Origin: Xanthomonas sontii | GTDB taxonomy: Bacteria > Pseudomonadota > Gammaproteobacteria > Xanthomonadales > Xanthomonadaceae | DNA: 64,000 nt | Reading direction: 5' to 3' | Assembly: GCF_040529055.1 (NCBI RefSeq) | Contig: NZ_CP132342.1 | Span: 3,656,001-3,720,000, forward strand | In this document: positions 1-12,923 of the stretch, in pieces | Layout of the letters: each line of letters opens with the position of its first letter | How positions within the stretch are numbered: position 1 is the first letter of the stretch | Notes under the pieces: model-generated | What the model was told of the DNA's origin: nothing | Database searches by the model: none | The model's input: the letters and a program-made list of their open reading frames with translations, nothing else | Made by a program: the position numbers and the translations under genes

Positions 1-664
1 CGCGGCCAGCGCCGCGCCGACGGCGTTGCAGATCGCCGCGGTCGACAGCGTCCCGGCCGACCTGCTGCGCCGGCGCCCGGACATCGCCACGCGCGAAGCC
101 GAGGTGCTGAGCGCGGCCGGCGCGCTGGATCTGGCCCGCGCCGATCAGTACGGCAGCATCGGCCTGGGCGGTTCGATCCGCTGGTCGACCACCCTGCTGA
201 GCCATCGCCGCACCGCCACCCACGGTATCGCCTCGTTCGGCCCGGTGATCGACATTCCGCTGTTCGACTGGGGCATCCGTCATGCCAAGGCCAAGGCGCG
301 CGGCGACCTGCTGGAAGCGGCTACCCTGGCCTACCGGCAGACCGTGCTGGAGGCAGTCAACGAGGTCGAGGACGCGCTGACCGCACTGGAACAGCAGCGG
401 CGCAACGTCGAAACCCAGCAGCAGGTGCTGCAGGCACAGCAGCAGGCCAGCGAGGTCGCGCAGCAGCGCCGGCGGCTGGGCCTGGGCAGCGACCTGGACG
501 TGGCCACGCAGCAGGCCGCGCGCGACCAGGCCGCCCTGGAACTGCTGGAAGCGCAGCGCCAGCGCGACCTGGCCTACGTCGCCCTGCACACCGCACTGGG
601 CAGCGCCACTGCGCCGATCCCCGGCACCGGCGCCGTCAGCAACCACGAAGGCGCGCAGCCCTGA
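1..664 (+). CDS. Outer-membrane efflux protein (TolC/NodT family), C-terminal part
   Basis: The open frame enters from the left edge and runs about 220 residues to a TGA at 662-664. Near its start is VPADLLRRRPDI, the hallmark that separates the two structural repeats of RND/ABC-type outer-membrane factors, followed by long alpha-helical stretches rich in Gln, Ala and Arg (roughly residues 120-190) expected of the periplasmic tunnel. Such proteins form the outer-membrane exit duct of tripartite exporters. The stop overlaps the ATG of the next gene (ATGA), so it is translationally coupled to the ABC permease. Its N-terminus, and so any lipobox, lies outside the window. The family call is firm; the substrate is unknown. 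Confidence 0.9.
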   Translation, partial: AASAAPTALQIAAVDSVPADLLRRRPDIATREAEVLSAAGALDLARADQYGSIGLGGSIRWSTTLLSHRRTATHGIASFGPVIDIPLFDWGIRHAKAKARGDLLEAATLAYRQTVLEAVNEVEDALTALEQQRRNVETQQQVLQAQQQASEVAQQRRRLGLGSDLDVATQQAARDQAALELLEAQRQRDLAYVALHTALGSATAPIPGTGAVSNHEGAQP

Positions 665-1797
665 TGGTCGCGCTGGCCCGCCAGACCCTGCGCTACGAGT
701 GGCGCCGCTTCCTGCCGGTGGTGGTATCCGTGGGCTTCGCCAGCCTGTTGCTGCTGCTGCAGACCGCACTGGTGCTGGGCATCTTCGGCAGTGCCAGCGT
801 CTATGTGTCCGGCTCCGACGCCGACCTGTGGCTGGGCTACCCCGGCACGCAGAGCGTGGACCAGGGCCGCGCCATCGATCCGGACGCGGCCGCGCCGCTG
901 TACCTGGACCCGCGGGTGGCGCAGGTCGAGCCGTTCATCTGGTTCGACGGCGACTGGCGCGGCCCCGGCGACACCGGCGCGGTGTCGGTCTACATCTCCG
1001 GCATCGACACCCGCGACGGCGGGCTGATGTTCTCCCGTCTGCTCAGCCCCGCCCTGCGCGCGGCGCTGCGCGAACCGGACACCGTGGTGGTGGACCGCGC
1101 GGAACTGGACAAGCTCGGCGTCGGCGTCGGCAGCAGCGCGCGCATCAATGGTCATCGCGTGCGGGTGATCGGGGTCGGCCGCGGCCTGCGCGCGCTCGGC
1201 GGGGTCAACGTGCTCGCCTCGCTGGACACCGCGCGCGCGCTCAACAGCGACACTGCGCATCCGGACTGGCCGACCTACATGGTGGCCAGGCTGCGCCCCG
1301 GCGCCGACCCGCAGGCGGTGGCGCAGGCGATCGACAGCGCGGTCACGCGGCCGCGCGTGGAAGCCTGGAGCGCGGACGATTTCGCCCGGCGCAGCATCCT
1401 GTTCTGGATGTTCGACACAGGCGCCGGCTCCGGCGTGCTGTTCCTCGGCGGCATCGTGCTGCTGGTCGGCGTGGCCATCACCAGCCAGACCCTGCTCGGC
1501 ACCGTGCTCGGCGCCGCGCGCGAGTACGCCACGCTCAACGCGCTGGGCGTGAGCATGCGCAACCTGCGCTGGGTGGTGCTGGAACAGGCCGCCTGGGTCG
1601 GTGCGCTGGGCCTGATCGGCGCCAGCGCGCTGGGCGCGGCGCTGGTCGCGCTGGCCCGCGCGCACGACGTGCCGGTGGCGTTCAACGCCAGCGGCTGGGG
1701 CCTGTGCGTGTGTGCGGTGATGCTGCTGACCGTGGTCTCGGCCCTGGCCGCGCTGCGCGGCCTGCGCCGCGCCGATCCGGCGTTGCTGCTGCGATGA
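664..1797 (+). CDS. ABC transporter permease, FtsX/DevC-like
   Basis: This is a 377-residue inner-membrane protein with the MacB/FtsX-type layout: one N-terminal membrane helix (about residues 18-42), a periplasmic domain of some 200 residues, then three C-terminal helices (about 255-280, 305-330 and 343-365). The absence of a fused ATPase and the separate ATPase and adaptor genes directly downstream resemble DevBCA-type exporters. The start ATG at 664 overlaps the stop of the outer-membrane factor, and its own stop overlaps the next ATG (1794). It probably pairs as a dimer with the ATPase and uses ATP to drive a mechanotransmission cycle. The cargo cannot be inferred. Confidence 0.88.
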   Translation: MVALARQTLRYEWRRFLPVVVSVGFASLLLLLQTALVLGIFGSASVYVSGSDADLWLGYPGTQSVDQGRAIDPDAAAPLYLDPRVAQVEPFIWFDGDWRGPGDTGAVSVYISGIDTRDGGLMFSRLLSPALRAALREPDTVVVDRAELDKLGVGVGSSARINGHRVRVIGVGRGLRALGGVNVLASLDTARALNSDTAHPDWPTYMVARLRPGADPQAVAQAIDSAVTRPRVEAWSADDFARRSILFWMFDTGAGSGVLFLGGIVLLVGVAITSQTLLGTVLGAAREYATLNALGVSMRNLRWVVLEQAAWVGALGLIGASALGAALVALARAHDVPVAFNASGWGLCVCAVMLLTVVSALAALRGLRRADPALLLR

Positions 1798-2558
1798 GCC
1801 GCATCGTCGCCCCCGCCGCGCTGCATCCGGCCGCCGCCACCCTCAGCGGCAGCGGACTGTGCAAGAGCTTCGTCTCCGGCAGCCTGCGCACGCCGGTGCT
1901 GCGCGACGTGGAACTGCAGGTGTGGCCGGGCGAGCTGACCCTGATCTCCGGCCCGTCGGGCTGCGGCAAGAGCACCCTGCTGTCGATCCTCAGCGGCCTG
2001 CAGCGCGCCGACGCCGGCCAGGTGCTGGCGCTGGGCGAGGAACTGGGTGCGCTCGGCGCCACCGCGCTGGAGCAGTTCCGGCTGCGCCACACCGGCTTCA
2101 TCTTCCAGGGCTTCAACCTGTTCCCGGCGCTGTGCGCGCTGGACCAGGTGCGGCTGCCGCTGCAGTACATGGGCCTGGCCCCGGCCGAAGTGCGCAGCCG
2201 TGCGGAGGAGGCGCTGGCCGAGGTCGGCATCGCCCACCGCCAGCACCTGCGCCCGGCCGAACTGTCCGGCGGCGAGAAGCAGCGCGTGGCGATCGCCCGC
2301 GCGCTGGCCAAGCACCCGGCGCTGCTGTTTGCCGACGAACCCACCAGCGCGCTGGACGCCGGCAACGGCCAGATCGTGATCGACCTGCTGCACCGCATCG
2401 CGCGCCGCCACAACACCATGGTGCTGTGCGTGAGCCACGACCCGCGCCTGATCCGCCATGCCGACCGCGTGCTGTCGATGGAGGACGGCCGCATCCTCGA
2501 CGACCGCCGCGTCAACGCGCCGCCCTCGCCCCTGCCCTCACGGAATCCCGCACCATGA
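1794..2558 (+). CDS. ABC transporter ATP-binding protein (MacB/LolD/DevA type)
   Basis: This 254-residue ATPase has a complete nucleotide-binding domain: Walker A GPSGCGKST at about residues 53-61, signature LSGGEKQR at 157-164, Walker B LLFADEP at 177-183 and a switch histidine in CVSHDP. The Q-loop FIFQGFNLFP is of the type found in lipoprotein and macrolide exporters. I chose the ATG at 1794, which overlaps the upstream stop, rather than the long in-frame extension that merely shadows the permease gene. The stop overlaps the ATG of the membrane-fusion gene. Together the four genes encode one tripartite ABC efflux pump. Confidence 0.92.
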   Translation: MSRIVAPAALHPAAATLSGSGLCKSFVSGSLRTPVLRDVELQVWPGELTLISGPSGCGKSTLLSILSGLQRADAGQVLALGEELGALGATALEQFRLRHTGFIFQGFNLFPALCALDQVRLPLQYMGLAPAEVRSRAEEALAEVGIAHRQHLRPAELSGGEKQRVAIARALAKHPALLFADEPTSALDAGNGQIVIDLLHRIARRHNTMVLCVSHDPRLIRHADRVLSMEDGRILDDRRVNAPPSPLPSRNPAP

Positions 2559-3454
2559 AAGCGTTCGCCGCCGCGCCCCTGCTGAGCCTGCTGCTGGCCG
2601 CATGCGCGCCCTCGGACCGCACGCCGGCCCCGGCGCCGGCCGCCACCCCGGCCTACCTGGCGGTGGCGCGCGGCCGCATCGATGTGGAAGGCGGCGTGCT
2701 CAAGCTCGGCCTGCCGGTCGCCGCGACCCTGCGCGAGGTGCCGGTGCACGAGGGCGACGCGGTGCAGAAAGGCGCCGTGCTGGTCGCCGGCGACGACCGC
2801 GCCGCCGCGGTCGAGCTGGACATCGCCCGTACCCGCGCGCAGGCCGCGGCGACCCACCTGAAACAACTGCAGCAGCGCCTGCAAAGCGCCCAGCAGAAGC
2901 AGCGGCGGCTGGCCGAGGCTGCGCGCCTGGGCGCCGGCGACGGGCAGACCGCCGACGACGCCAGCGACGCGGTGCAGAGCCTGGCCGACGCGCTGGACAC
3001 CGCACGCAGCGACGCGGCGCTGGCCGACGCGCAGGTACGGGCGGCAGAGTTGCAGCGCGCGCAGTACCGGCTGCAGGCGCCGGTCGCCGGCCGCGTCCTG
3101 CAGCTGTCGGCCGCGGTCGGCGCGCGCAGCGAGGCCAACGCGCCGCTGCTGACCCTGCTGCCGGACGCGCCGCGCCTGGTCCGCGCCGAATTGAACGAAA
3201 GCTATGCCGGCAGCGTCACCCCGGGCATGGCCGCCGAGGTCATCAGCGACGACGGCCGCCAGACCGTGCTCGGCCAGGCGGTGGTGCGTTGGCTGGCGCC
3301 GGCCTACGGCCCGACCCAGTTGCACGACGACGCCACGCCCGCCGGCAACGACCGCAGCGTGGCCTGCGTGCTGGCCTTCACCCAGCCCTCGACCCTGCGC
3401 CTGGGCCAGCGCGTGCTGGTGCGCTTCCGCAACCCGGCTGCGGCCAAGCATTGA
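2555..3454 (+). CDS. Membrane-fusion (periplasmic adaptor) lipoprotein, HlyD/MacA family
   Basis: This 299-residue adaptor begins with a lipoprotein signal: the lipobox LAAC places the lipidated cysteine at about residue 17. A biotinyl-lipoyl-like half (about 55-85), a coiled-coil hairpin rich in Gln, Ala and Arg (about 85-170), the second lipoyl half with LQAPVAGRV, and a C-terminal beta-barrel segment follow. It would bridge the inner-membrane ABC transporter and the outer-membrane duct. The start was set at the ATG (2555) that overlaps the ATPase stop and gives a signal peptide; the much longer frame upstream is a shadow. A gap of about 90 bases separates it from the next gene, so the exporter operon probably ends here. 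Confidence 0.88.
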   Translation: MKAFAAAPLLSLLLAACAPSDRTPAPAPAATPAYLAVARGRIDVEGGVLKLGLPVAATLREVPVHEGDAVQKGAVLVAGDDRAAAVELDIARTRAQAAATHLKQLQQRLQSAQQKQRRLAEAARLGAGDGQTADDASDAVQSLADALDTARSDAALADAQVRAAELQRAQYRLQAPVAGRVLQLSAAVGARSEANAPLLTLLPDAPRLVRAELNESYAGSVTPGMAAEVISDDGRQTVLGQAVVRWLAPAYGPTQLHDDATPAGNDRSVACVLAFTQPSTLRLGQRVLVRFRNPAAAKH

Positions 3455-3546
3455 GCTTGCACGCCGCCGCGGCGGCGAAAGGCTGCTGAAACGCGCAGCG
3501 GCGACCCTGCACGGATTGCCGAGACTGCGCAGCCGCGCCCATTCAC

Positions 3547-4374
3547 ATGATCCAATCTGCCGAGTTCCACTTCGAAGGCGGCCGCAATGGCGTGCTGCTG
3601 ATCCACGGCCTGACCGGCACGCCCAGCGAAATGCGCCTGCTCGGCAGGAGCCTGAACCGCGAAGGCTTCAGCGTCCACGGCGTGCAACTGGCCGGCCACT
3701 GCGGCGACGAGGACGATCTGCTCGCCACCAACTGGCGCGACTGGTACGCCAGCGTCGAGGCGGCGGCCGCGCGCATGCGCCCACAGGTCGACCGGCTGTT
3801 CGTGGCCGGGCTGTCGATGGGCGCGGTGCTGGCGCTGCGCCTGGCGCAGGAGCGTCCGCAGTGGGTGGACGGGGTCGGCGTGCTCGGCGCCACCTTCCGC
3901 TACGACGGCTGGAACATCCCCAAGCGCGCGCGGCTGGCGTTCCTGCTGCCCTGGTTCAAGCGCCTGGGCATCGGCAAGCGCCGCATGTTCCTGGAAGAGC
4001 CGCCGTACGGCCTGCGCGACGAGCGCATCCGCGCCCAAATCAGCAGCGCGATGCTCGGCGGCGACAGCAGCGCCGCCGGCCTGCCTGGCAACCCCTGGCA
4101 CGCCCTGGCCGAGATGTACCTGCTCGCGCGCGCGGTGCGCCGCGACCTGCCCAAGGTCGTCGCGCCATGCCTGGTCGCGCACGCGACCGAGGACGACATC
4201 GCCGACCTGCGCAATGCGCGGCTGGTGATCGCCAACGTGTCCGGGCCGACGGAGCTGCTGCTGCTGCACGACAGCTATCACATGATCACCCTGGACCGCG
4301 AACGGCGCGTGCTCGGCGCGCGCCTGGCGCAGTTCTTCGCCGCCCTGTGCGTGCCGCAGCAGGCCGCCGCCTGA
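3547..4374 (+). CDS. Alpha/beta-fold hydrolase (carboxylesterase-like)
   Basis: This 275-residue protein has an alpha/beta-hydrolase fold resembling Est30-type carboxylesterases. The oxyanion strand LLIHGLTGTPSE is at about 17-28, the nucleophile elbow GLSMGA has its serine at about residue 90, an acidic residue lies in HATEDDIAD near 220, and the catalytic histidine is in DSYHMITLD near 248. Its stop overlaps the ATG of the first small transporter, so it heads a four-gene plus-strand unit with two EamA-like proteins and a DegT aminotransferase. In that setting it may release or edit an acyl or ester intermediate of the neighbouring ACP/ketosynthase genes. That role is inference only. Confidence 0.85.
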   Translation: MIQSAEFHFEGGRNGVLLIHGLTGTPSEMRLLGRSLNREGFSVHGVQLAGHCGDEDDLLATNWRDWYASVEAAAARMRPQVDRLFVAGLSMGAVLALRLAQERPQWVDGVGVLGATFRYDGWNIPKRARLAFLLPWFKRLGIGKRRMFLEEPPYGLRDERIRAQISSAMLGGDSSAAGLPGNPWHALAEMYLLARAVRRDLPKVVAPCLVAHATEDDIADLRNARLVIANVSGPTELLLLHDSYHMITLDRERRVLGARLAQFFAALCVPQQAAA

Positions 4375-4736
4375 TGGCGATGACCGGCTCGGTAGTGGGC
4401 ATCTGGCTGGCGACGGTGGCGCTCGACACCGCCGGCCAATTGGCCTTCAAGTACGTGGCCAGCCACCCGCAGGGCACCGGCATGGCGCGCTGGCAGCGCA
4501 TGGCGCGGCAGCCGCAGCTGTGGTTCGGCATGGCCTGCTATGTGCTCGAATTCCTCGCCTGGACCGCGTTCCTGTCGCTGGTGCCGCTGGGCCGCGGCGT
4601 GCTGCTGGGTTCGATCAACATCGTGGCGATCATGCTGGCCGGGCGCTGGCTGTTCGGCGAACGCCTCGGGCGCATGCAGGTGGCCGGCATCTGCCTGGTC
4701 AGCGCCGGCGTGGCGGTGGTGGGGCTGGGCTCATGA
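4374..4736 (+). CDS. Small four-helix EamA/SMR-like transporter, first half
   Basis: This 120-residue integral membrane protein has four hydrophobic segments (about 7-25, 45-65, 70-90 and 98-118). It starts at an ATG overlapping the hydrolase stop and ends overlapping the start of a second, similar protein. The size and tandem arrangement resemble ArnE/ArnF, which act as a heterodimeric lipid-linked sugar flippase, or paired SMR exporters. The motif LGRGVLLGSINIVAIMLAG is typical of EamA helices. Next to a DegT-type aminotransferase, a role in flipping or exporting an amino-modified product is plausible but unproven. Confidence 0.8.
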   Translation: MAMTGSVVGIWLATVALDTAGQLAFKYVASHPQGTGMARWQRMARQPQLWFGMACYVLEFLAWTAFLSLVPLGRGVLLGSINIVAIMLAGRWLFGERLGRMQVAGICLVSAGVAVVGLGS

Positions 4737-5131
4737 GCCGGCCGCCGCTGCATCGCTACGCGGTGGGCTTCGCCCTGCTGCTGAGCTTCGACACCCTGGC
4801 GCAGATCGGCTTCAAGCTGGCCGGCACGCACGCGTTCCCGCCGCAGGCCGAACTGGCCTGGGTGCTGCGCCTGCTCGGCAGCCCATGGCTGTACGCGGCG
4901 CTGCTCGGCTACATCGGCGCCTTCTTCACCTGGATGAAGCTGCTCGAGCACGCGCCGATCGGCCCGGCATTCGCCGCCTCGCACCTGGAAGTGGTCAGCG
5001 TGATGCTGCTGTCGGCCTGGTGGTTCAACGAACACATCGGCCTGTTGCAGGCGCTGGGCGCGGCGCTGATCGTCGGCGGCATCGTCTGCCTGGCGATCGG
5101 CGAGCGCGCGGACCCCGCCGATGCGCACTGA
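4733..5131 (+). CDS. Small four-helix EamA/SMR-like transporter, second half
   Basis: This 132-residue membrane protein has four predicted helices and the EamA-type stretch HAPIGPAFAASHLEVV. Its start overlaps the first half-transporter by 4 bases and its end overlaps the aminotransferase start by 11 bases, so both halves would be made in step. The two proteins are clearly related in layout (an LLSFDTLAQIGFKL motif here against TVALDTAGQLAFKY upstream), as expected for partners in an antiparallel or parallel heterodimer. The substrate is unknown. It could also be a generic drug/metabolite exporter. Confidence 0.8.
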   Translation: MSRPPLHRYAVGFALLLSFDTLAQIGFKLAGTHAFPPQAELAWVLRLLGSPWLYAALLGYIGAFFTWMKLLEHAPIGPAFAASHLEVVSVMLLSAWWFNEHIGLLQALGAALIVGGIVCLAIGERADPADAH

Positions 5132-6374
5132 AATCCCACCGACCGCCGGCCTGCCGCTGCAGTGGGGCGACCTGTGGCCAGGTCGGCCGCGCGAACGCCT
5201 GGCCAGCGCGCTCGGCCTGCCGCAGGCGCTGCTGACCTGCTCGGGCACCGCCGCGCTGATCGTGGCCCTGCGCACCCTGACCGCGGCCAACCGGCGCCGG
5301 CAGGTGCTGGTGTCGGCCTATACCTGCCCACTGGTGGCGCTGGCGGTGGCGCACTGCGGCCTGCAACTGGTGCTGTGCGATCTGCTGCCCGGCTCGCTGG
5401 AACTGGACCCGGTGCAGCTGGCGCAGCGCTGCGGCAGCGACACCCTGGCCATCATCGCCACCCATCTGGGCGGGCGCCTGATCGACCTGGCGCCGCTGCG
5501 CCGCGCCGCCGAAGGCTGCGGCGCGCTGCTGATCGAGGACGCGGCGCAGGCGCTGGGCGGCGTGCATCCCGACGGCCGCCCGGCCGGCCTCGGCGGCGAC
5601 ATCGGCTTCTGCAGCCTGGCCGCCGGCAAGGGACTCACGCTGTACGAAGGCGGGCTGCTGATGTCGCGGCATGCGCCGCTGCAGCGCAGTCTGGCCGACA
5701 CCGCCGCGCGCCTGGGCCAGCGCGACTGGCGCTGGGAACTGCGGCGCAGCCTGGAACTGCTCGGCTACGCCGCGCTGTACCGGCCGCAGCAGTTGCGCTG
5801 GGCGTACGGCGCACCGGTGCGCCGCGCGCTGCGCCGCGGCGACCGCATCGGCGCGGCCGGCGACCGCTTCGGCACGGCCATCGCCCAGCACGCGGTCGGC
5901 GCCTGGCGCGAAGGCGTCGGCGTGCGCGCCAGCGCGCGCTGGCCGGCATTTCTTGCGCAGATCCGCGAACAGGGCCGGCGCCGCAGCGCACGCCTGGCCA
6001 GCATCCCCGGCCTGAGCGTGATCGCCGATACCCCCGGCGCCCAGGGCAGCTGGCCGATCCTGATGGTGCTGCTGCCCGATGCCGCCGCACGCGAATCGGT
6101 GCTGGATGCGCTGTGGCCGCGCGGACTCGGGGTGGCGGTGCCGTTCGTGCATGCCCTGCCCGACTACGACTACCTGGACGGCATCGTCGAACGCACGCCC
6201 ATGCCCAACGCCAGCGACTTCGCCGCGCGCTGCCTGAGCATCAGCAACAGCCCCTGGCTGGACGAGGCGCGCTTCGAGACCATCGTGGCCACGCTGCAGG
6301 CGGCCTGCGCCGGCGCGGTCGGGCCGGCGCCGCTGGATGTCGACCTGGTGCACGCCGCTGCGCCGAGCGCTTGA
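5121..6374 (+). CDS. DegT/DnrJ/EryC1/StrS-type PLP aminotransferase
   Basis: This 417-residue fold-type I PLP enzyme resembles sugar aminotransferases. LLTCSGTAAL (about 37-46) would bind the cofactor phosphate, IEDAAQALGG carries the PLP-pyridine aspartate (about 140), and SLAAGKGLTLYEGG carries the Schiff-base lysine (about 170). Enzymes of this family usually transaminate keto-sugars, but other carbonyl substrates are known. The C-terminal part, where substrate specificity lies, is less typical. It is the last gene of the plus-strand unit and faces the arginase-like gene across a palindromic repeat. The start was chosen at 5121, overlapping the upstream gene by 11 bases. Confidence 0.85.
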   Translation: MRTEIPPTAGLPLQWGDLWPGRPRERLASALGLPQALLTCSGTAALIVALRTLTAANRRRQVLVSAYTCPLVALAVAHCGLQLVLCDLLPGSLELDPVQLAQRCGSDTLAIIATHLGGRLIDLAPLRRAAEGCGALLIEDAAQALGGVHPDGRPAGLGGDIGFCSLAAGKGLTLYEGGLLMSRHAPLQRSLADTAARLGQRDWRWELRRSLELLGYAALYRPQQLRWAYGAPVRRALRRGDRIGAAGDRFGTAIAQHAVGAWREGVGVRASARWPAFLAQIREQGRRRSARLASIPGLSVIADTPGAQGSWPILMVLLPDAAARESVLDALWPRGLGVAVPFVHALPDYDYLDGIVERTPMPNASDFAARCLSISNSPWLDEARFETIVATLQAACAGAVGPAPLDVDLVHAAAPSA

Positions 6375-6440
6375 TCGGGCGACGTGCGACTTCGCCAGCG
6401 TCGCGATGACAACGCGCCGGTCGTAACGACGACAAAATCC

Positions 6441-6507
6441 TGCAGGCGCGGCTTCATCCGCGAGAAGCGATACCGGTCATGCCCTCGCGGTTGAAGCCGC
6501 GCCCACA
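6441..6507. repeat. REP-like palindromic intergenic repeat
   Basis: Two imperfectly complementary arms (GCGCGGCTTCATCCGCGAG and CTCGCGGTTGAAGCCGCGC) surround a central AAGCGATACCGGTCATGCC. It sits between two convergent genes, as REP elements often do, and could act as a bidirectional transcription terminator. Related 'GCGGCT..AGCCGC' arms recur at 56645-56712. Confidence 0.7.
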
Positions 6508-6520
6508 GAAACGGGCCGCG

Positions 6521-7399
6521 CTAGCCGACGCTGGCCGCATCCAGCGCCGCCAGCAGCCGCAGGTTCAACGCGTGCTGCTGCGCCTGCCACGCCGACAGGT
6601 CCGCCGGCGACGGTTCGGGTTGCGCATCCAGCGCCGCCAGTTTTCGCTTCCACCATTGCGGGTAATGGGCCAGCGAGACTTCGCCGGTGATGTCGCTGCC
6701 GCACACCTGCCCGCGCAGCGCCTCGATCGCCTGCAGCAACTGCGGTATGCGCAGTTGGCCCTGGTCCCAGTTGGTGCGCACGTCCTGCGGATCCAGCACG
6801 TCCTTGTCCAGCGACAGATAGGTCGGCATCGGCGTGCGCCGCAGGTGCTCGACGAACGCGTCGCTCAGCGCGCTCACGCTGTCGAAACCGCGCACCGCCT
6901 GGCCCAGGCCCAGCCGCCGCGCCCAACCCACGTCCACGCCGCTGCACCAGTAGCGCAGCTTGCCGCGGTACAGCGGCAGCAGATGGTTTTCCCAGGCATG
7001 GCCGGGGCCGACGTCGCCGGAGGTGATGCCGGCCACCTCGACCTGCGCCACCTGCGGCAGCGCGGCGATGCGGCGCACCCACGAGCCGCAGTGCACGCCG
7101 AACGGGAAGCGCATGTTGTCCGGATGGTTGTCGAACACCACCACCCGCAACGGCGCCTGCGCGCGCTGCGCCAGGCGTACGATCAACGGCAGGCTCAGGT
7201 GATGGAAATCGCCACTGCCCAGCAGCACGGTGCCGTACTGCGCCGGCAGCGCCTGCTCCAGCGCCGCGCCGAAGCGGCGCAGCCGCGCCATCGAGCAGGC
7301 GAAGCGCAGGCCGTCGCACCAGTCGCGCAACGGCAGGCGCACGGCGTCGGGCACTGCGCCCAGCGAAGCGTCGAGATCGAGCAGGACCGGGGTGCGCAT
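6521..7399 (-). CDS. Arginase/ureohydrolase-fold protein (divergent)
   Basis: This 292-residue protein retains the binuclear-metal motifs of the arginase/agmatinase/deacetylase fold in altered form: GSGDFHH (about 61-67) in place of GGDHS, DNHPD (about 90-94) in place of DAHxD, and SLDKDVLDP (about 196-204) matching SxDxDxxDP. Metal-dependent hydrolysis of a guanidino, amide or similar C-N bond is therefore likely, but the substrate pocket differs from true arginase. The start is the ATG at 7399, two bases from the stop of the FemAB-like gene; the upstream in-frame ATG would only overlap that gene. The two genes form a minus-strand pair in the unrecognised biosynthetic block. Confidence 0.82.
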   Translation of the reverse strand: MRTPVLLDLDASLGAVPDAVRLPLRDWCDGLRFACSMARLRRFGAALEQALPAQYGTVLLGSGDFHHLSLPLIVRLAQRAQAPLRVVVFDNHPDNMRFPFGVHCGSWVRRIAALPQVAQVEVAGITSGDVGPGHAWENHLLPLYRGKLRYWCSGVDVGWARRLGLGQAVRGFDSVSALSDAFVEHLRRTPMPTYLSLDKDVLDPQDVRTNWDQGQLRIPQLLQAIEALRGQVCGSDITGEVSLAHYPQWWKRKLAALDAQPEPSPADLSAWQAQQHALNLRLLAALDAASVG

Positions 7400-7400
7400 C

Positions 7401-8468
7401 TCAGTCCTCCTCGGCGGCATCGGCGGCCGGCCCGACGTCGTCGGATTCGAACAGCGGCCGCAGCCGCCGCAGCACGGCGCGCAGCAGCGGATTGCGCAGG
7501 TACACCGCATGCCAGGTGTAGGTGAAGCTGGCGCCGAGCTGGGCCTTCACCTCCGGATCGGTCCAGCCGGCGACGTAGGCGGTGAGGCCATGGCGGCAGG
7601 CATAGTCGAGGTTCTCGATCCAGCTCAGCGCGTACAGGTTGTGGTCGCGCGCATCCGGGTAGTGCAGACCGATGTACTTGTCGATCAGCCGACCCTCGTG
7701 CACGTAGCACAGATTCCAGCCGATGATGCGGCCCTGGTGCCGGTACACGAACACCTGCCCGCCCGAGTCGGCGTCGGTCAGCAGCGCGTCGAAGAACGGT
7801 TCGGTCAGCAGGTCGAAATGGATCTCGCTCTGCGCGTACACCTCCTGGTACAGCGCATAGCAGTGCGCGCGCAGCGCCGGATCGGCGAAGGCCGGGCCGG
7901 TCGGCAGCACCTCGATCTCCAGATCGGCGCGCGAGCGCAGCTTGCGGCGGATGTTGCGCCGGCGCCCGCGCGAGAGCCGCGCCAGGTACTCGTCGGTGGA
8001 GGCGAAGTCGATCGGCACCCAGGCCAGCGCCTGCCCGCGCAGCAGCACGTAGCCGTTGCGCTCGCAGGCGTCCAGGAACGCCTGCGCCCAGGCGTTGTCG
8101 GCCTCATCCAGCAGCGGCGAGCGCTGCGGCACGTCCTTGACGATCATCAGCGCGCGGCGCCGGCCCAGTTGCGTACGCCACTGCCGCGGCAACTGCACCG
8201 GGTCGGCCGCGCGCGGCAGCCAGGCGTATTCGCTGACGGTGCTGCCGACGAAGCTGGTGCGCGGCCGCAGCAGGCGCTGCCACAGCCGCTGCAGCGGCAG
8301 CCGCGCCACCTTCGCGCGCAGCGCGGGTTCGGCGGTGGTGAGCAGGTCGAAATCGGCCTCGAAGGCCGGCACCCCGTGCTCCAGGGGCTGGATCAGGAAA
8401 CCGGCTGGCGGGTGCTGCAGGAACTGCCGCTGCAAGGCCTGCGGCTCGAGTTGGTTGACGAAAGGCAT
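7401..8468 (-). CDS. FemAB/GNAT-like acyltransferase
   Basis: This 355-residue protein has no signal peptide. Its C-terminal half resembles the FemAB-like/GNAT fold: RRNIRRKLRSRADLEIEV (about 195-212), GQVFVYRHQGRIIGWNL, and LIDKYIGLHYPDARDHNLY with the strand-helix order of acyl-transferring N-acyltransferases. Members use acyl-CoA, acyl-ACP or aminoacyl-tRNA donors. It is divergently transcribed from the acyl carrier protein gene with about 110 bases between starts, so it may share a control region and use that ACP as donor; this is inference. The ATG at 8468 was chosen because everything further upstream in frame is antisense to the ACP and ketosynthase genes. Confidence 0.78.
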   Translation of the reverse strand: MPFVNQLEPQALQRQFLQHPPAGFLIQPLEHGVPAFEADFDLLTTAEPALRAKVARLPLQRLWQRLLRPRTSFVGSTVSEYAWLPRAADPVQLPRQWRTQLGRRRALMIVKDVPQRSPLLDEADNAWAQAFLDACERNGYVLLRGQALAWVPIDFASTDEYLARLSRGRRRNIRRKLRSRADLEIEVLPTGPAFADPALRAHCYALYQEVYAQSEIHFDLLTEPFFDALLTDADSGGQVFVYRHQGRIIGWNLCYVHEGRLIDKYIGLHYPDARDHNLYALSWIENLDYACRHGLTAYVAGWTDPEVKAQLGASFTYTWHAVYLRNPLLRAVLRRLRPLFESDDVGPAADAAEED

Positions 8469-8580
8469 CTGCAAGATTGATCGTCTAGCGTGGAGAATGG
8501 ATGCTGCGGCCCAGGCCGCAGCGTGCGATCCACCGGCGGCGGGCGCCGCGCGGTGGCCCTTCATTTCGCGGAGCACTGCC

Positions 8581-8856
8581 ATGACCCCGTCCATCGAGTC
8601 GCAAATCCACAGCATCGTCGCCAAGCATGGCGAGATCGACCCGGCGCGCCTGACCCCCGATGCCAAGCTGCAGGACCTGGGCGTGGATTCGCTCGAGGCC
8701 ATCGAAATCCTGTTCGACATCGAAGAACACTTCGACATCACCTTCCCGCAGCGCGACCCGAACCTGGACGACGGTTCGCTCGGCAAGCTGGTGCAGGCGG
8801 TCGAGGACGCGCTGGCGGCCAAGGCGGCGGCCGGCGCGGCGCAACCGGCGCACTGA
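8581..8856 (+). CDS. Acyl carrier protein (stand-alone)
   Basis: This 91-residue protein carries the phosphopantetheine site LGVDSLEAIEI, with the modified serine at about residue 37, and an acidic helix II/III surface (FDIEEHFDITFP) typical of type II ACPs. An alanine-rich tail follows. The ATG is preceded by GGAG with 9 bases spacing. Six bases separate its stop from the ketosynthase start, so the two form one unit and presumably one elongation module. It is clearly not the housekeeping acpP, which normally sits in the fab cluster. Confidence 0.93.
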   Translation: MTPSIESQIHSIVAKHGEIDPARLTPDAKLQDLGVDSLEAIEILFDIEEHFDITFPQRDPNLDDGSLGKLVQAVEDALAAKAAAGAAQPAH

Positions 8857-8862
8857 CGCGCC

Positions 8863-10101
8863 ATGGGCGCCTCCCCGCACGCGCGGCGCGTCGTGGTCAC
8901 CGGCATGGGCGCGGTCAGCGCGCTCGGCCTGGGCGCCGAGGCGCTGTGGAGCGCGATGCGCGAGGGCCGCAGCGGCATCGCCGCCCTGCCCTCGCCCGAT
9001 CCGCTCAGCACGTTGAAGATGCGCGTGGCCGCGACCCTGCAAGGGTTCGCTCCGGATGCCACGCAGACCGGCGGCATCGCCCCCGGCCAACTCGACCGCA
9101 TGACCCAGATGGCGCTGGTCGCCGCCCGCGAGGCGATCGCCCAGGCCGGCCTGCCGCACGGCGATGCCGCGCTCGGCGCGCGCTGCGCGGTGGTGGTCGG
9201 CACCGGCGTCGGCGCCGAACTCAGCCGCGACGAACAATCGCGCCGGCTGTACCGCGACCAGGCCGAACGCCTGCATCCGCTGACCATCGTGCGCAGCATG
9301 GCCAACGCGCCGGCCAGCCAGATCAGCATCGCCTTCGGCCTGCGCGGCCCGGCCTTCGCCGTCTCCAGCGCCTGCGCCTCGGCCAATCACGCCTTCGCCC
9401 AGGCCGCGCTGATGGTCCGCCATGGCCTGGCCGATGTGGCCATCGCCGGCGGCAGCGAAGCCTGCCTGAGCCTGGCGCTGATCCGCGCCTGGGAAGCGAT
9501 GCGGGTGGTCAGCGACGACACCTGCCGGCCGTTCTGCGCGCAGCGCAGCGGCCTGGTGCTGGGCGAAGGCGCCGGCATGTTCGTGCTGGAAAGCGCCGAG
9601 CACGCGGCCGCCCGCGGCGCGCTGCCGCTGGCGGAACTGGCAGGATTCGGCATGAGTTCCGATGCCGGCGACATCGTCGCGCCCAGCGTCGACGGCGCCA
9701 CCACGGCGATGCGCCTGGCGCTGCAGGACGCCGGCCTGGCGCCGGAACAGATCGATTACGTCAACGCCCACGGCACCGGCACGCAGGCCAACGACCGCTG
9801 CGAAACCCAGGCGCTGCGTCAGGTGTTCGGTGCGCACGCCGAGGCGCTGGCGGTCAGCTCGACCAAGGCGGTGCACGGCCATGCGCTCGGCGCGGCCGGC
9901 GCGCTGGAACTGGTGGCGGCGATCGGCGCGCTGCGCGAGCAGGTGGTGCCGCCCACGGCCAACTTCCTCGATGCCGATCCCGAATGCGATCTGGACTACG
10001 TGCCCAACCAGGCGCGCGCCCGCAACGTGCAGGCGGTGCTGAGCAATTCCTTCGCCTTCGGCGGACTCAATGCGGTGATCGCGCTGCGCGCGGCGGGCTG
10101 A
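8863..10101 (+). CDS. Beta-ketoacyl-ACP synthase, FabF-like (KAS II type)
   Basis: This 412-residue thiolase-fold condensing enzyme has all three catalytic residues: the cysteine in SSACASANHAF (about 171), the histidine in NAHGTGTQAND (about 303) and the histidine in KAVHGHALGAAG (about 340). It should therefore decarboxylate malonyl-ACP and carry out a Claisen condensation, rather than act as a chain-length factor. Directly downstream of its own ACP and without ketoreductase, dehydratase or enoyl reductase neighbours, it may carry out a single condensation, with reductions borrowed from fatty-acid synthesis. It converges on the class III aminotransferase gene. Confidence 0.93.
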   Translation: MGASPHARRVVVTGMGAVSALGLGAEALWSAMREGRSGIAALPSPDPLSTLKMRVAATLQGFAPDATQTGGIAPGQLDRMTQMALVAAREAIAQAGLPHGDAALGARCAVVVGTGVGAELSRDEQSRRLYRDQAERLHPLTIVRSMANAPASQISIAFGLRGPAFAVSSACASANHAFAQAALMVRHGLADVAIAGGSEACLSLALIRAWEAMRVVSDDTCRPFCAQRSGLVLGEGAGMFVLESAEHAAARGALPLAELAGFGMSSDAGDIVAPSVDGATTAMRLALQDAGLAPEQIDYVNAHGTGTQANDRCETQALRQVFGAHAEALAVSSTKAVHGHALGAAGALELVAAIGALREQVVPPTANFLDADPECDLDYVPNQARARNVQAVLSNSFAFGGLNAVIALRAAG

Positions 10102-10105
10102 AGCG

Positions 10106-10129
10106 CCCGCCGCCGCAAACAACGGCGGG
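10106..10129. terminator. Possible bidirectional terminator hairpin
   Basis: CCCGCCG (10106-10112) pairs with CGGCGGG (10123-10129) across a 10-base loop, in the short gap between convergent genes. There is no U-tract, so the call is weak. Confidence 0.35.
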
Positions 10130-10166
10130 AGGCAACGCGAACCGCGCGCGTCGTCTCCCGCCCGGC

Positions 10167-11639
10167 TCATGCGACCTGCTTGGCGCGGGTCAGCAACTGG
10201 TCCAGCAAGGACAGGCCCAGGTCGATCTCTTCGTGGCTGATGTGCAGCGACGGCGCCAGCGTGATCACGTTCTTGTAGTAACCGCCCACGTCCAGAATCA
10301 GGCCGATGCGCTTGCCGTTGTGGCGCAGTTCGCCTTCCAGGCCCATGTCGACCATGGTGTCGAGCAGCTTGCGGTTCGGCGTGAAGCCGTCCGCCTGGCA
10401 GATTTCCGCACGCAGGGCCAGGCCCAGGCCGTCGACGTCGCCGATTTCCGGGTGGCGCTTCTGCAGGTCGCGCAGGCCGTCCAGGAAGTGCGCGCCCTTG
10501 GCCATCACCATCGACTCGTAGTCGGTCTCGGCCAGCATGCGCATGGTTTCCAGGCCGACCGCGGTGCCCAGCGGGTTGGAAGCGAAGGTGGAGTGGGTCG
10601 AACCCGGCGGGAACACGGTCGGGTTGATCAGCTCCTCGCGCGCCCAGATGCCGGCCAGCGGGTTCAGGCCGTTGGTCAGCGCCTTGCCGAACACCAGTAC
10701 GTCCGGGGTCACGCCGAAATGCTCGATCGCCCACAGCTTGCCGGTGCGGAAGAAGCCCATCTGGATTTCGTCCACCACCATCAGGATGCCGTACTTGTCC
10801 AGCACCCGCTTCAGGCCGGTGAAGAAGTTCGGCGGCGGGATCACGTAGCCGCCGGTGCCCTGGATCGGCTCGACGTAGAACGCCGCGTACTCGCACTGCC
10901 CGGCCTTGGGATCCCACACGCCGTTGTACTCGGTCTCGAACAGGCGCTCGAACTTGGCCACGCACTGCTCGCCGTACTCTTCCTTGGACATGCCCTTGGG
11001 GCCGCGGAAGTGGTACGGGAATTCGATGAACTGGGCGCGGTCGAAATGACCGAAGCGACGGCGGTAGCGGTACGACGAGGTGATCGCCGAGGCACCGAGG
11101 GTACGGCCGTGGTAGCCGCCTTCGAAGGCGAACACCAGGCTCTTGCCGGCGCTGGCGTTGCGCACCAGCTTCAGCGAGTCTTCCACCGACTGCGCGCCGC
11201 CGACGTTGAAGTGCACGCGGCCCTTGCGGCCCCACTTGCGCTCGGCGTCGACCGCGATGGTCTTGGCCAGCTCGATCTTGGTCGGGTGCAGGTACTGGCT
11301 GGCGACCTGCGGCAGGGTCTCGATCTGGCGGGTCAGCGCCTGGTTCAGGCGCGGATTGGCGTAGCCGAAGTTGACCGCCGAGTACCACATCTGCAGGTCC
11401 AGGTACGGCACGTCTTCGGTGTCGTACAGGTAGCTGCCGTCGCAGCGGCCGAAGATGCGCGGCGGCTCGCTGTAGTGCACGGTGTCGCCGTAGGAGCAGT
11501 ACTGGGACTCGTCGGCCAGCATCTGCGCATCGGTCAGCGCGCGCTGGTGGTCGGCACCGGTGCGCAGCAGCGCCTCCGGATCGGGCGCGGCATCGCCATG
11601 CAGCGGTGCGAGCGAGGAAAGCGAAACATTCCGGTTCAT
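10167..11639 (-). CDS. Class III PLP aminotransferase (acetylornithine/GABA aminotransferase family)
   Basis: This 490-residue class III aminotransferase has a phosphate-binding NVGGAQSVEDSLK (about 145-157), FEGGYHGRTLG (about 172-182), the cofactor aspartate in VVDEIQMGF (about 290) and the Schiff-base lysine in LVFGKALTNG (about 319). It should move an amino group between an omega-amine or amino acid and a 2-oxo acid or aldehyde. An N-terminal extension of about 60 residues precedes the usual start of the family. It lies 5 bases downstream of the HAD phosphatase gene and belongs to the unrecognised biosynthetic block. The start ATG at 11639 was chosen; the longer frame is antisense shadow within the HAD gene. 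Confidence 0.88.
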   Translation of the reverse strand: MNRNVSLSSLAPLHGDAAPDPEALLRTGADHQRALTDAQMLADESQYCSYGDTVHYSEPPRIFGRCDGSYLYDTEDVPYLDLQMWYSAVNFGYANPRLNQALTRQIETLPQVASQYLHPTKIELAKTIAVDAERKWGRKGRVHFNVGGAQSVEDSLKLVRNASAGKSLVFAFEGGYHGRTLGASAITSSYRYRRRFGHFDRAQFIEFPYHFRGPKGMSKEEYGEQCVAKFERLFETEYNGVWDPKAGQCEYAAFYVEPIQGTGGYVIPPPNFFTGLKRVLDKYGILMVVDEIQMGFFRTGKLWAIEHFGVTPDVLVFGKALTNGLNPLAGIWAREELINPTVFPPGSTHSTFASNPLGTAVGLETMRMLAETDYESMVMAKGAHFLDGLRDLQKRHPEIGDVDGLGLALRAEICQADGFTPNRKLLDTMVDMGLEGELRHNGKRIGLILDVGGYYKNVITLAPSLHISHEEIDLGLSLLDQLLTRAKQVA

Positions 11640-11644
11640 CGGGA

Positions 11645-12337
11645 TCAGGCTCGTTGGGTGACGGGAAGCGGGAAGGACACGGTGGTGGTCGCCGGCACCG
11701 CCAGGTCGGGCAGCAGGGCGATGGCGTCGTCGAAACCGGTGATCGCGCAATGGGCGATCCCGTTGGCGCGGCAATGGCGCAGCAGACCGTCCTTGGCGAA
11801 CACCAGGTCGGCCTTGCCGGCCAGGCAGAAATCGGAACGACCGTCGCCGATCAGCAAGGTGGCGCGCTCGGGCGGCTGCTGCGCCATGACCGCGCACTTG
11901 CAGGTGCCGCTGGGGCAGTCCGGGCGCGCATGCGGCGAGGCCATGCGCCATTCGCCCGCGTCGGTACGCAGCAGGCGGTTGGCGATGATCGGCAGGTGGT
12001 GCAGGCCGTGGCGGGCCAGGATCCGGGCGATGCCGTAGTCCAGGCCGTCGCTGACGATGCTCAGCGGGATGCCCAGGCGTTCGGCCAGCGCCACGAAGCG
12101 CACGAAGGCCGGGTCGATCCGCACCGCATCCAGCACCCGGTGCAACGCATCGACGTCGCCGTCGAGCAGCGCGACCTGCTTGCTCATGCACTCGCGGGCC
12201 CCGATCCGACCGGCGACCCAGTCGTCTTCCAGCTCCTGCCAACCGGGGCGCCCGAGGTGCTCGAGCAGGCTGTCGGTCACGTCCTGCAGGGACACGGTAC
12301 CGTCAAAATCGCAAAGGATGTTCCATTGGGCGCGCAA
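11645..12337 (-). CDS. HAD-IB phosphatase, MtnX/SerB-like
   Basis: This protein of about 230 residues has HAD motifs: CDFDGTVS (motif I, nucleophile Asp), SIVSDGLDYG (motif II, Ser) and IGDGRSDFCLA (motif IV, the acidic pair). The helical cap after motif I and the overall size match MtnX-like phosphatases and phosphoserine phosphatases. I chose a TTG start at 12337, 8 bases after GGAG, because it begins just before the core strand NILCDFDG; an in-frame ATG at 12424 would add 29 residues unlike the family. It is followed 5 bases later by the aminotransferase, so a phosphorylated intermediate may be dephosphorylated in the same pathway. Confidence 0.8.
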   Translation of the reverse strand: MRAQWNILCDFDGTVSLQDVTDSLLEHLGRPGWQELEDDWVAGRIGARECMSKQVALLDGDVDALHRVLDAVRIDPAFVRFVALAERLGIPLSIVSDGLDYGIARILARHGLHHLPIIANRLLRTDAGEWRMASPHARPDCPSGTCKCAVMAQQPPERATLLIGDGRSDFCLAGKADLVFAKDGLLRHCRANGIAHCAITGFDDAIALLPDLAVPATTTVSFPLPVTQRA

Positions 12338-12527
12338 GGTGGCTCTCCGGCTGATGGGGGCAGAGCCTAGGCACGCTGTCTTTCGCACTCCTTTCGGCGA
12401 GGTGAAAGAAAGCGGAGCGTTCACATTGGGCGTGGTAGGTCGGGCGCCACCGCACCTCCTCGCAAGGAGCCTGGATCGGTCGCACAGTTCCCAATTCGAC
12501 CGCGATCGGGCAACCTACTCCTACCAG

Positions 12528-12614
12528 GCCCGGATGGCGAAACTGGTAGACGCATCGGACTTAAAATCCGCCGGGGGCGACCCCATGCCGGTTCGATTCC
12601 GGCTCCGGGCACCA
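12528..12614 (+). tRNA. tRNA-Leu (anticodon TAA)
   Basis: The acceptor arms GCCCGGA and TCCGGGC pair, the D-loop, anticodon loop (CTTAAAA with TAA), long variable arm and T-arm (CCGGTTCGATTCCGG) are all present, and CCA is encoded. The 87-base length is right for a class II tRNA. It reads UUA codons. Confidence 0.97.
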
Positions 12615-12923
12615 CGTATTGGCAGGCGGAACCGACAGGCCACATCAGGCACGGCCCCCCAGCTCTACCGCCTCGGCACGCCAATCATCCCGATCACCAC
12701 AGATGCGCCGCATGCACGGTGGTGTTTGACGCCCAGGCTGTTCGCTGGCCGAGCGCAGCGTTTGCCCCACGGCCAGTCGGCGGAAAGCGCCGGGAAAGCG
12801 CATCCATTGTGGGATGACCCGCAAACTGTCCGAACGCAAGCGACAGGCACTGCATCGCCCCCGGACGACATCGTGCTAGAAACATTGCCACACCAGCCGC
12901 GCCGGCTGCTTGGGGAGAAGCGA
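12615..12923. other. Intergenic region without a supported gene
   Basis: About 310 bases follow tRNA-Leu without any reading frame that looks real on either strand and without a clear terminator. tRNA 3' ends are common integration sites, but I see no repeat of the tRNA tail, integrase or att-like duplication here. Confidence 0.5.

Follow-up and report, generated by a model that had tools for sequence, protein, structure and literature searches.

Ten adjacent genes of Xanthomonas sontii form part of a conserved, modular cluster that, in the reading we tentatively favour, would build an amine-bearing, surface-bound lipid to which arginine is added and then trimmed to ornithine. The genes lie at positions 3547-12337 of the 64,000-nucleotide stretch analysed (assembly GCF_040529055.1, contig NZ_CP132342.1, positions 3,656,001 to 3,720,000; hereafter the window). 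Under the names used here, they encode an alpha/beta hydrolase (ABH), two EamA-type half transporters, a DegT-type aminotransferase dependent on pyridoxal phosphate (PLP), a ureohydrolase-fold metalloenzyme (ARG), a Fem-type transferase (FEM), an acyl carrier protein (ACP), a ketosynthase (KS), a class III PLP enzyme (AMT3) and a HAD phosphatase. The cluster is a real, conserved pathway family, more widely spread than the block alone showed, whose substrates, product and enzyme roles we infer from the genes, their linkage, predicted folds and conserved residues. An earlier note on this DNA could not match the gene set to a described pathway, and we too found no description of it in the open-licence literature (subscription journals could hold one).

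Conservation within the Xanthomonadales

Co-occurrence outside this genome, named in the earlier note as the decisive check, proved strong. Among 299 genomes of the order, ARG is found in 76, FEM in 77 and both in 75, counting weak matches (G033 at E 8.6e-4 for ARG; fragments in G230 and a match in G248 at E 2.8e-11 for FEM). All 75 carry the pair on a single contig, with at most 300 bp between the two genes in 71 and a maximum of 1449 bp; within the order FEM and ARG are near-inseparable. AMT3 (E<=1e-100) is present in 80 of the genomes, 71 of which also have ARG. The two genes lie within 10 kb of each other in 56 of these; of the remaining 15, nine have them on separate contigs and six at a distance of over 10 kb, and the cluster is therefore, contig breaks aside, split in some lineages.

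Within the genus, ARG occurs in 19 of 20 Xanthomonas genomes. Across the order, at least eight of the ten genes are present, in varying order, in 15 of 20 regions of 15.7-19.9 kb (one per genome). The annotated record of X. sacchari R1 has all ten in identical order and matches the window at 97.3% over 4.2 kb. There the cluster (NZ_CP010410.1 428000-452000), together with hemN, belongs to a 508-kb sequence that was submitted as a plasmid and may be a piece of the chromosome; the window's genome has the cluster on a single 5.0-Mb contig. Two of the 20 regions (L044 and L045) keep HAD-AMT3-FEM-ARG alone. Three others (L052-L054) hold a divergent version with ARG, FEM, ABH, ACP, KS and two EamA-type genes, and no DegT, AMT3 or HAD within the stretch read. 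A fatty-acid-desaturase-like gene, identified by eye, lies directly 3' of KS in two of these (L053 4201-5106, L054 4469-5377), and in the third an MBOAT gene and another gene (L052 6779-9221) directly precede the divergent ARG-EamA-ABH-FEM-EamA-ACP-KS set. Chance neighbourhood is ruled out by co-occurrence and synteny.

Distribution beyond the order

Aligned and used as a query, 11 AMT3 proteins (65-75% identical to the first of them) found at least 580 AMT3 loci in named genomes, of which the best 80 were read. With 17 hand-chosen loci and the window they make up a set of 98, not a random sample, in which 96 loci have an AMT3 match and 95 fall in the AMT3 cluster; gene labels came from a home-made open-reading-frame filter that missed some genes, such as the window's FEM, ABC (ATP-binding cassette) and HAD genes. 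The best 80 span several phyla: Magnetococcales, Alpha-, Beta- and Gammaproteobacteria, Desulfovibrio and other Deltaproteobacteria, Acidobacteria, and one genome each of Gemmatimonadaceae and Riflebacteria. Near AMT3 in the 95 loci we find HAD in 78, ABH in 66 and KS in 24, and AMT3, HAD and ABH together form a co-localised core with a putative biochemical role. Labels across the whole set comprise EamA (44 loci), ARG (40), FEM (39), one sensor-kinase cluster (38), DegT (17), MipA (17) and the ABC permease (10). The earlier picture is thereby borne out: an unrecognised, conserved set of genes in which PLP enzymes, hydrolases and a pair resembling a flippase surround an acyl-ACP.

Companion genes differ between lineages. 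Several Acidobacteria have the order ACP-KS-glycosyltransferase-AMP ligase-HAD-AMT3, and their glycosyltransferase matches the monogalactosyldiacylglycerol synthase family of Pfam and, below cut-off, diglucosyl-diacylglycerol synthase models. Seven rhizobial plasmid copies read HAD-AMT3-ARG-EamA-ABH-FEM-EamA with a regulator and kinase adjoining, and have no annotated ACP or KS within the stretch read. To these genes they add a desaturase (five copies), a cyclopropane-fatty-acid synthase (four) and MipA (five), with the TolC-ABC set instead in two; one copy adjoins a lipid A phosphoethanolamine transferase and a diacylglycerol kinase. Companions of this kind are suggestive of a lipid.

We also note that on a Bartonella plasmid from bat faeces (L109 8998-15001) the neighbours of AMT3-FEM-ARG encode an MBOAT acyltransferase and an AlgX/SGNH-like protein, a case that the MBOAT partners of L052 resemble. 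Two Magnetococcales loci (L117 12251-12988, L097 8720-9457) have a conserved 245-residue protein adjoining ABH, for which no Pfam match was found at E<=0.001 (L117 protein). Neighbours of two Pseudomonas-like copies (L100, L101) are presumably an acidic amino acid transporter and an NtrC-type regulator, beside the cluster's own sensor and regulator. In Pseudomonas mandelii 6A1 (L195), the labelled genes are ARG, EamA, HAD, AMT3, ABH and FEM.

FEM and ARG as an arginine module

At E<=1, FEM matches only PF04339 and PF13480 in Pfam. Its predicted fold is of the tandem-GNAT Fem type, nearest to the tRNA-dependent MprF, FemX and streptothricin transferases, with model scores of 16-18 compared with at most 14.8 for other tandem GNATs or N-myristoyltransferase and 16.4 for one protein of unknown function. 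The nearest solved structures are the streptothricin ligases Sbb17 and Sba18 (15-18% identity), while by sequence FEM reached no E-value below 0.55 against solved structures. The FemAB/GNAT-like domain seen in the earlier note is therefore right, but its proposed role in joining an acyl chain changes, since a fold nearest to aminoacyl-tRNA-dependent transferases suggests that FEM may add an amino acid instead. A full-length FemAB_like protein (444 bits; L199, G000:C1:3285123-3286211) is encoded separately in the same genome.

The arginase-like assignment of ARG also holds as to fold, with the binuclear metal ligands of the His, DxHxD and DxD motifs (H66/H67, D90, H92, D94, D198 and D200) present in 22/22 sequences (the FEM and ARG models were built from 24 and 22 sequences, respectively, from the best 80 AMT3 loci and the window). 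The generic editing once proposed for it gives way to guanidine trimming, which the ureohydrolase fold suggests. Because the two genes are near-inseparable and have these folds, we propose that Arg-tRNA would be the donor from which FEM passes arginine to an amine, which DegT may have set, and that ARG would then hydrolyse the guanidine of the arginyl group to leave an ornithyl group.

The pair would act differently if the product were an N-acyl aminolipid of the OlsB/CerS kind, with FEM moving the acyl chain of ACP onto an amine that AMT3 or DegT has produced and ARG acting on a guanidino or amidino head group. ACP does adjoin FEM both here and in several of the Xanthomonadales loci, it is fused to ABH in Legionella, FEM carries the GNAT domain PF13480, and the proteobacterial ceramide route, as described in part of one source, relies on an N-acyltransferase together with an acyl-ACP synthetase and an ACP of its own (PMC11324152). 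However, in the loci read from rhizobia, Pseudomonas and Desulfovibrio, neither annotation nor labelling places an ACP near FEM, although small genes can escape; the FEM model scores nearer to tRNA-dependent transferases than to other GNATs; and the near-inseparability of FEM and ARG would be left unexplained. We regard an N-acyl product of this kind as unlikely.

AMT3 and the HAD phosphatase

By its sequence AMT3 is a family apart from ordinary class III aminotransferases. It has the Aminotran_3 domain and catalytic lysine of class III and lacks the Glu/Arg pair: K319 and the GRT arginine are kept in all 95 aligned sequences, all 95 have threonine (T262 and T460) where other class III enzymes carry the Glu and the Arg, and an arginine-rich stretch, RYRRR (residues 191-195), is fixed except for R194 (94/95). 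The nearest solved relative, 7vno, aligns Glu and Arg with the two threonines; GabT has the Arg, the chain used having Ser at the Glu position. We take the two positions to be those of Glu211 (E211) and Arg398 (R398) of GabT, presumably the pair for alpha-carboxylate donors.

These threonines, invariant in the 95, would fit an aminomutase, lyase or racemase-like enzyme, of which racemases and lyases exist within class III, the amine then coming from DegT or from the precursor. The retention of lysine 319 and the GRT arginine argues against this, as do the many AMT3 loci without DegT within the distance read, and such an activity, which would be compatible with the lipid readings, seems to us possible but on the unlikely side.

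The companion phosphatase passes the TIGR01489 cut-off and carries the DxDGT motif, making it a HAD-IB protein of the MtnX-like type. Under the favoured, arginine-based reading, AMT3 and HAD would aminate a phosphorylated precursor and then dephosphorylate it, yielding for example a serinol-like amino alcohol, an example chosen by analogy with amination-then-dephosphorylation routes described in parts of two sources (PMC3222319, PMC11800397).

Acyl supply

ACP and KS look accessory to the set, given how much less often KS than HAD or ABH is found near AMT3. The earlier note had described a block built on them: both are present and KS is, as it stated, fully catalytic by motif, with a complete Cys-His-His triad, but a central place for the two is not borne out, nor is a short acyl chain. 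Chain-supply genes vary, with ACP-KS plus an AMP ligase in Acidobacteria and a fusion of a fatty acyl-AMP ligase (FAAL) to ACP in Legionella. Legionella sp. PATHC038, the one genome read closely for fusions, encodes a 1039-residue FAAL-ACP-ABH protein (L150 12125-15244; ABH part 39% identity) and a 737-residue protein joining a FEM-like domain to DegT (L150 7388-9601), thus linking ABH to acyl-ACP and FEM to DegT. A 1011-residue L. steigerwaltii protein resembles the FAAL fusion at its start. We suggest that ACP-KS would supply the acyl chain here, and FAAL or an AMP ligase in some other lineages, and that ABH would hand over or release the chain carried by ACP.

Transport and control

A TolC-permease-ATPase-adaptor set ends at 3454, 92 bp upstream of ABH on the same strand, and the ABC-HlyD-TolC genes are syntenic with the cluster in several other genera. 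The ten genes thus stand as a block, but the start at 3547 given in the earlier note does not, as this set accompanies them elsewhere. A sensor kinase gene lies beyond the TolC gene, left of the window, and two-component genes adjoin the cluster in many loci read. In X. sacchari R1 a regulator, a sensor kinase and a TolC gene likewise lie left of the ten genes, and the permease reading frame is in two pieces and missing from the annotated gene table. The only NCBIfam match of the window's permease is devC, the adaptor matches DevB among others, and no solved structure matched the permease by sequence at E<=0.001. We suggest that the product would be flipped by the EamA pair and then leave through the DevC/DevA-like ABC-HlyD-TolC set, with the adjoining two-component system controlling the cluster.

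Such an exporter, accompanying the cluster in several genera, could instead pump out a secreted specialised metabolite, a fatty-acyl amine, while the two-component system would sense a cue or competitor, and tRNA-dependent ligases of the FemX type are also known from antibiotic biosynthesis, streptothricin being one case. The near-universal presence of ARG in Xanthomonas is, however, more like a cell-envelope function, the rhizobial copies adjoin lipid-modifying and outer-membrane genes, and the permease cluster is labelled in few loci of the set; we find a secreted product distinctly unlikely.

The EamA pair, which resembles ArnE/ArnF, and DegT, which resembles sugar aminotransferases, might instead belong to an Arn-like sugar pathway, with DegT aminating a sugar, ARG removing an N-formyl-type group and the pair flipping a lipid-linked amino sugar. 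One acidobacterial locus (L148) even adds DegT, an epimerase-like gene (by eye), a polysaccharide deacetylase and glycosyltransferases. Yet the EamA and DegT scores are far below the Arn equivalog cut-offs (Table 1), the ten genes include no nucleotide-sugar or ArnC/ArnT-type gene, and DegT is labelled in only 17 loci, making a sugar pathway very improbable.

Gene layout

All ten genes are open and intact, and their Pfam types agree with each label, confirming the typing of the earlier note; a motif check found the expected motifs of KS, ACP, ABH, DegT, HAD, the ARG metal site and the AMT3 lysine (Table 1). In place of the three transcription units proposed before, we see four same-strand runs: ABH-EamA-EamA-DegT (+), FEM-ARG (-), ACP-KS (+) and HAD-AMT3 (-). 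The divergent pairs FEM-ARG and ACP-KS are separated by 112 bp (8469-8580), within which lies a perfect inverted repeat (8503-8522). The repeat is shared by the X. sacchari-like genomes read, but its conservation does not extend to the more distant Xanthomonas genomes that were read. Within 3300-12700 no sigma-70-type promoter was found, and the two terminator-like sites do not exceed shuffled sequence (mean 3.2). A tRNA-Leu gene (TAA anticodon, 12528-12614) near the HAD end is a possible island boundary.

Table 1. Genes of the cluster and the adjoining transport set, with positions in the window
Feature	Position	Strand	Basis
TolC/NodT-type outer-membrane channel, 3' part (start left of window)	1..664	+	PF02321; outer_NodT over 26-664; TolC family in X. 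sacchari R1
ABC permease, MacB_PCD + FtsX, DevC-like	664..1797	+	devC 67.4 bits (cut-off 290.35), near full length; Pfam
ABC ATPase, best match DevA family	1794..2558	+	TIGR02982 219.6 bits (cut-off 295.8)
HlyD-type periplasmic adaptor	2555..3454	+	PF13437; DevB 35.4 bits (cut-off 129); syntenic with cluster in other genera
ABH, S33 alpha/beta hydrolase (Hydrolase_4), predicted acyl-ACP substrate	3547..4374	+	PF12146 73.9 bits; GLSMG
EamA-1, EamA/ArnE-like half transporter	4374..4736	+	PF00892 29.2 bits; ArnE model 28.9 (cut-off 92)
EamA-2, EamA/ArnF-like half transporter	4733..5131	+	PF00892 39.8 bits; ArnF model 28.3 (cut-off 99)
DegT/DnrJ-type PLP aminotransferase (DegT_DnrJ_EryC1)	5121..6374	+	PF01041 125.3 bits; PLP lysine motif GKGLTLYEGG; ArnB model 45.2 (cut-off 631)
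ARG, ureohydrolase-fold metalloenzyme	6521..7399	-	Pfam Arginase; metal motifs
FEM, tandem-GNAT Fem/MprF-fold transferase, predicted aminoacyl-tRNA-dependent	7401..8468	-	PF04339 FemAB_like; PF13480 Acetyltransf_6
ACP, stand-alone	8581..8856	+	PF00550 (PP-binding) 42.2 bits; DSL serine in GVDSLE
KS, FabF-like ketosynthase	8863..10101	+	PF00109 + PF02801 (ketoacyl-synt N, C); C171, H303, H338
AMT3, class III PLP enzyme, distinct highly conserved family	10167..11639	-	PF00202 (Aminotran_3) 258 bits; lysine 319
HAD-IB phosphatase, MtnX-like	11645..12337	-	Pfam HAD; TIGR01489 96.7 bits (cut-off 81.55); DFDGT

Weighing the proposed pathway

Several observations weigh against an arginine-modified, amine-bearing lipid. 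The smallest sets, in L126 and L130, consist of HAD-AMT3-ABH and two-component genes, and the arginine module is therefore optional. Within the order, AMT3 occurs without ARG in 9/80 genomes and ARG without AMT3 in 5/76; in the locus set, FEM lacks a labelled ARG in 3/39 loci and ARG a labelled FEM in 4/40, two of these four (the window and L150) in fact carrying FEM. ABH is patchy, found in 31/398 phylum genomes and 6/369 class genomes (E<=1e-30).

As to the enzymes, the modelled likeness of FEM to MprF and FemX is one of fold only and falls short of proving tRNA use. FemAB_like covers only residues 133-334 of FEM, GNAT folds also accept CoA or ACP donors, and FEM could use acyl-ACP instead. 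ARG has an unusual metal motif, DKD, in 22/22 sequences, and passed no named ureohydrolase model, scoring 17.5 and 18.1 bits with agmatinase models whose cut-offs are 174.3 and 302. Without the Glu/Arg pair the reaction of AMT3 is uncertain and glutamate-driven transamination doubtful, and judging by its residues AMT3 may belong to some other class of PLP enzyme. The EamA proteins match their nearest named models below cut-off only, as the transport set does the DevBCA models. Finally, MprF-type and OlsB-type genes are found elsewhere in the genome, and the cluster is therefore no simple substitute for them.

An arginine-then-ornithine lipid nevertheless remains the reading that we tentatively prefer. 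Its fullest form, which we think rather unlikely, is an undescribed class of cationic membrane lipids that Proteobacteria and other phyla share, with an amino-alcohol core made by HAD and AMT3 (as a new class III PLP family), arginylation from Arg-tRNA, trimming to an ornithyl group by a dedicated ureohydrolase, flipping by the split EamA pair and its own two-component switch. Found across several phyla in bacteria that live with plants, in soil or with animals, and lacking any assigned product that we could find, the gene set would indicate an overlooked membrane lipid or metabolite, and, if the arginine-then-ornithine step is true, it would be a second tRNA-dependent route to a cationic lipid, built unlike that of MprF. 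The fixed residues of AMT3, unlike those of ordinary class III aminotransferases, pose a clear question of enzymology.

Relation to known systems

For the permease and the ATPase the best-scoring models are those of the Dev proteins, giving the transport set a likeness to DevBCA-TolC, although all three Dev scores are below cut-off. DevBCA exports heterocyst glycolipids. The DegT aminotransferase and the EamA-like half-transporter pair recall ArnB/ArnE/ArnF; membership is rejected, as the scores are far below the cut-offs and the ten genes hold no counterpart of ArnA, ArnC or ArnT. Sbb17 and Sba18, for all their structural proximity to FEM, belong to another cluster.

Amination and a phosphatase are shared, by analogy, with the serinol routes of RtxA and Cj1437/Cj1435, in which, according to the parts of the sources consulted, dihydroxyacetone phosphate is aminated and the phosphate later removed (PMC3222319, PMC11800397), in C. 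jejuni after serinol phosphate has joined the sugar; AMT3 differs in being without the class III Glu/Arg pair. Another source describes a system unlike this one, in which enzymes that generate ornithine, arginase included, share operons with paralogues of tRNA synthetases (PMC2922099).

A predicted ornithine-bearing lipid and the use of acyl-ACP are reminiscent of OlsB/OlsA, the OlsB route to ornithine lipids being covered in part of a review (PMC11631085). The ten genes contain no PF13444 N-acyltransferase, the genome's PF13444 gene lying elsewhere, and OlsB membership is rejected.

MprF is likened to the cluster by the tandem-GNAT Fem-type fold of FEM, the adjoining membrane transporters and the predicted cationic-lipid outcome, and it is beside such charged-lipid systems that we would infer a place for the pathway. 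FEM itself is no member of the MprF family, lacking LPG_synthase_C (PF09924), for which the genome has a match elsewhere. The cluster also differs from MprF in being built of separate genes, with transporters of another family, a ureohydrolase partner and an acceptor that is predicted to be made by the cluster itself.

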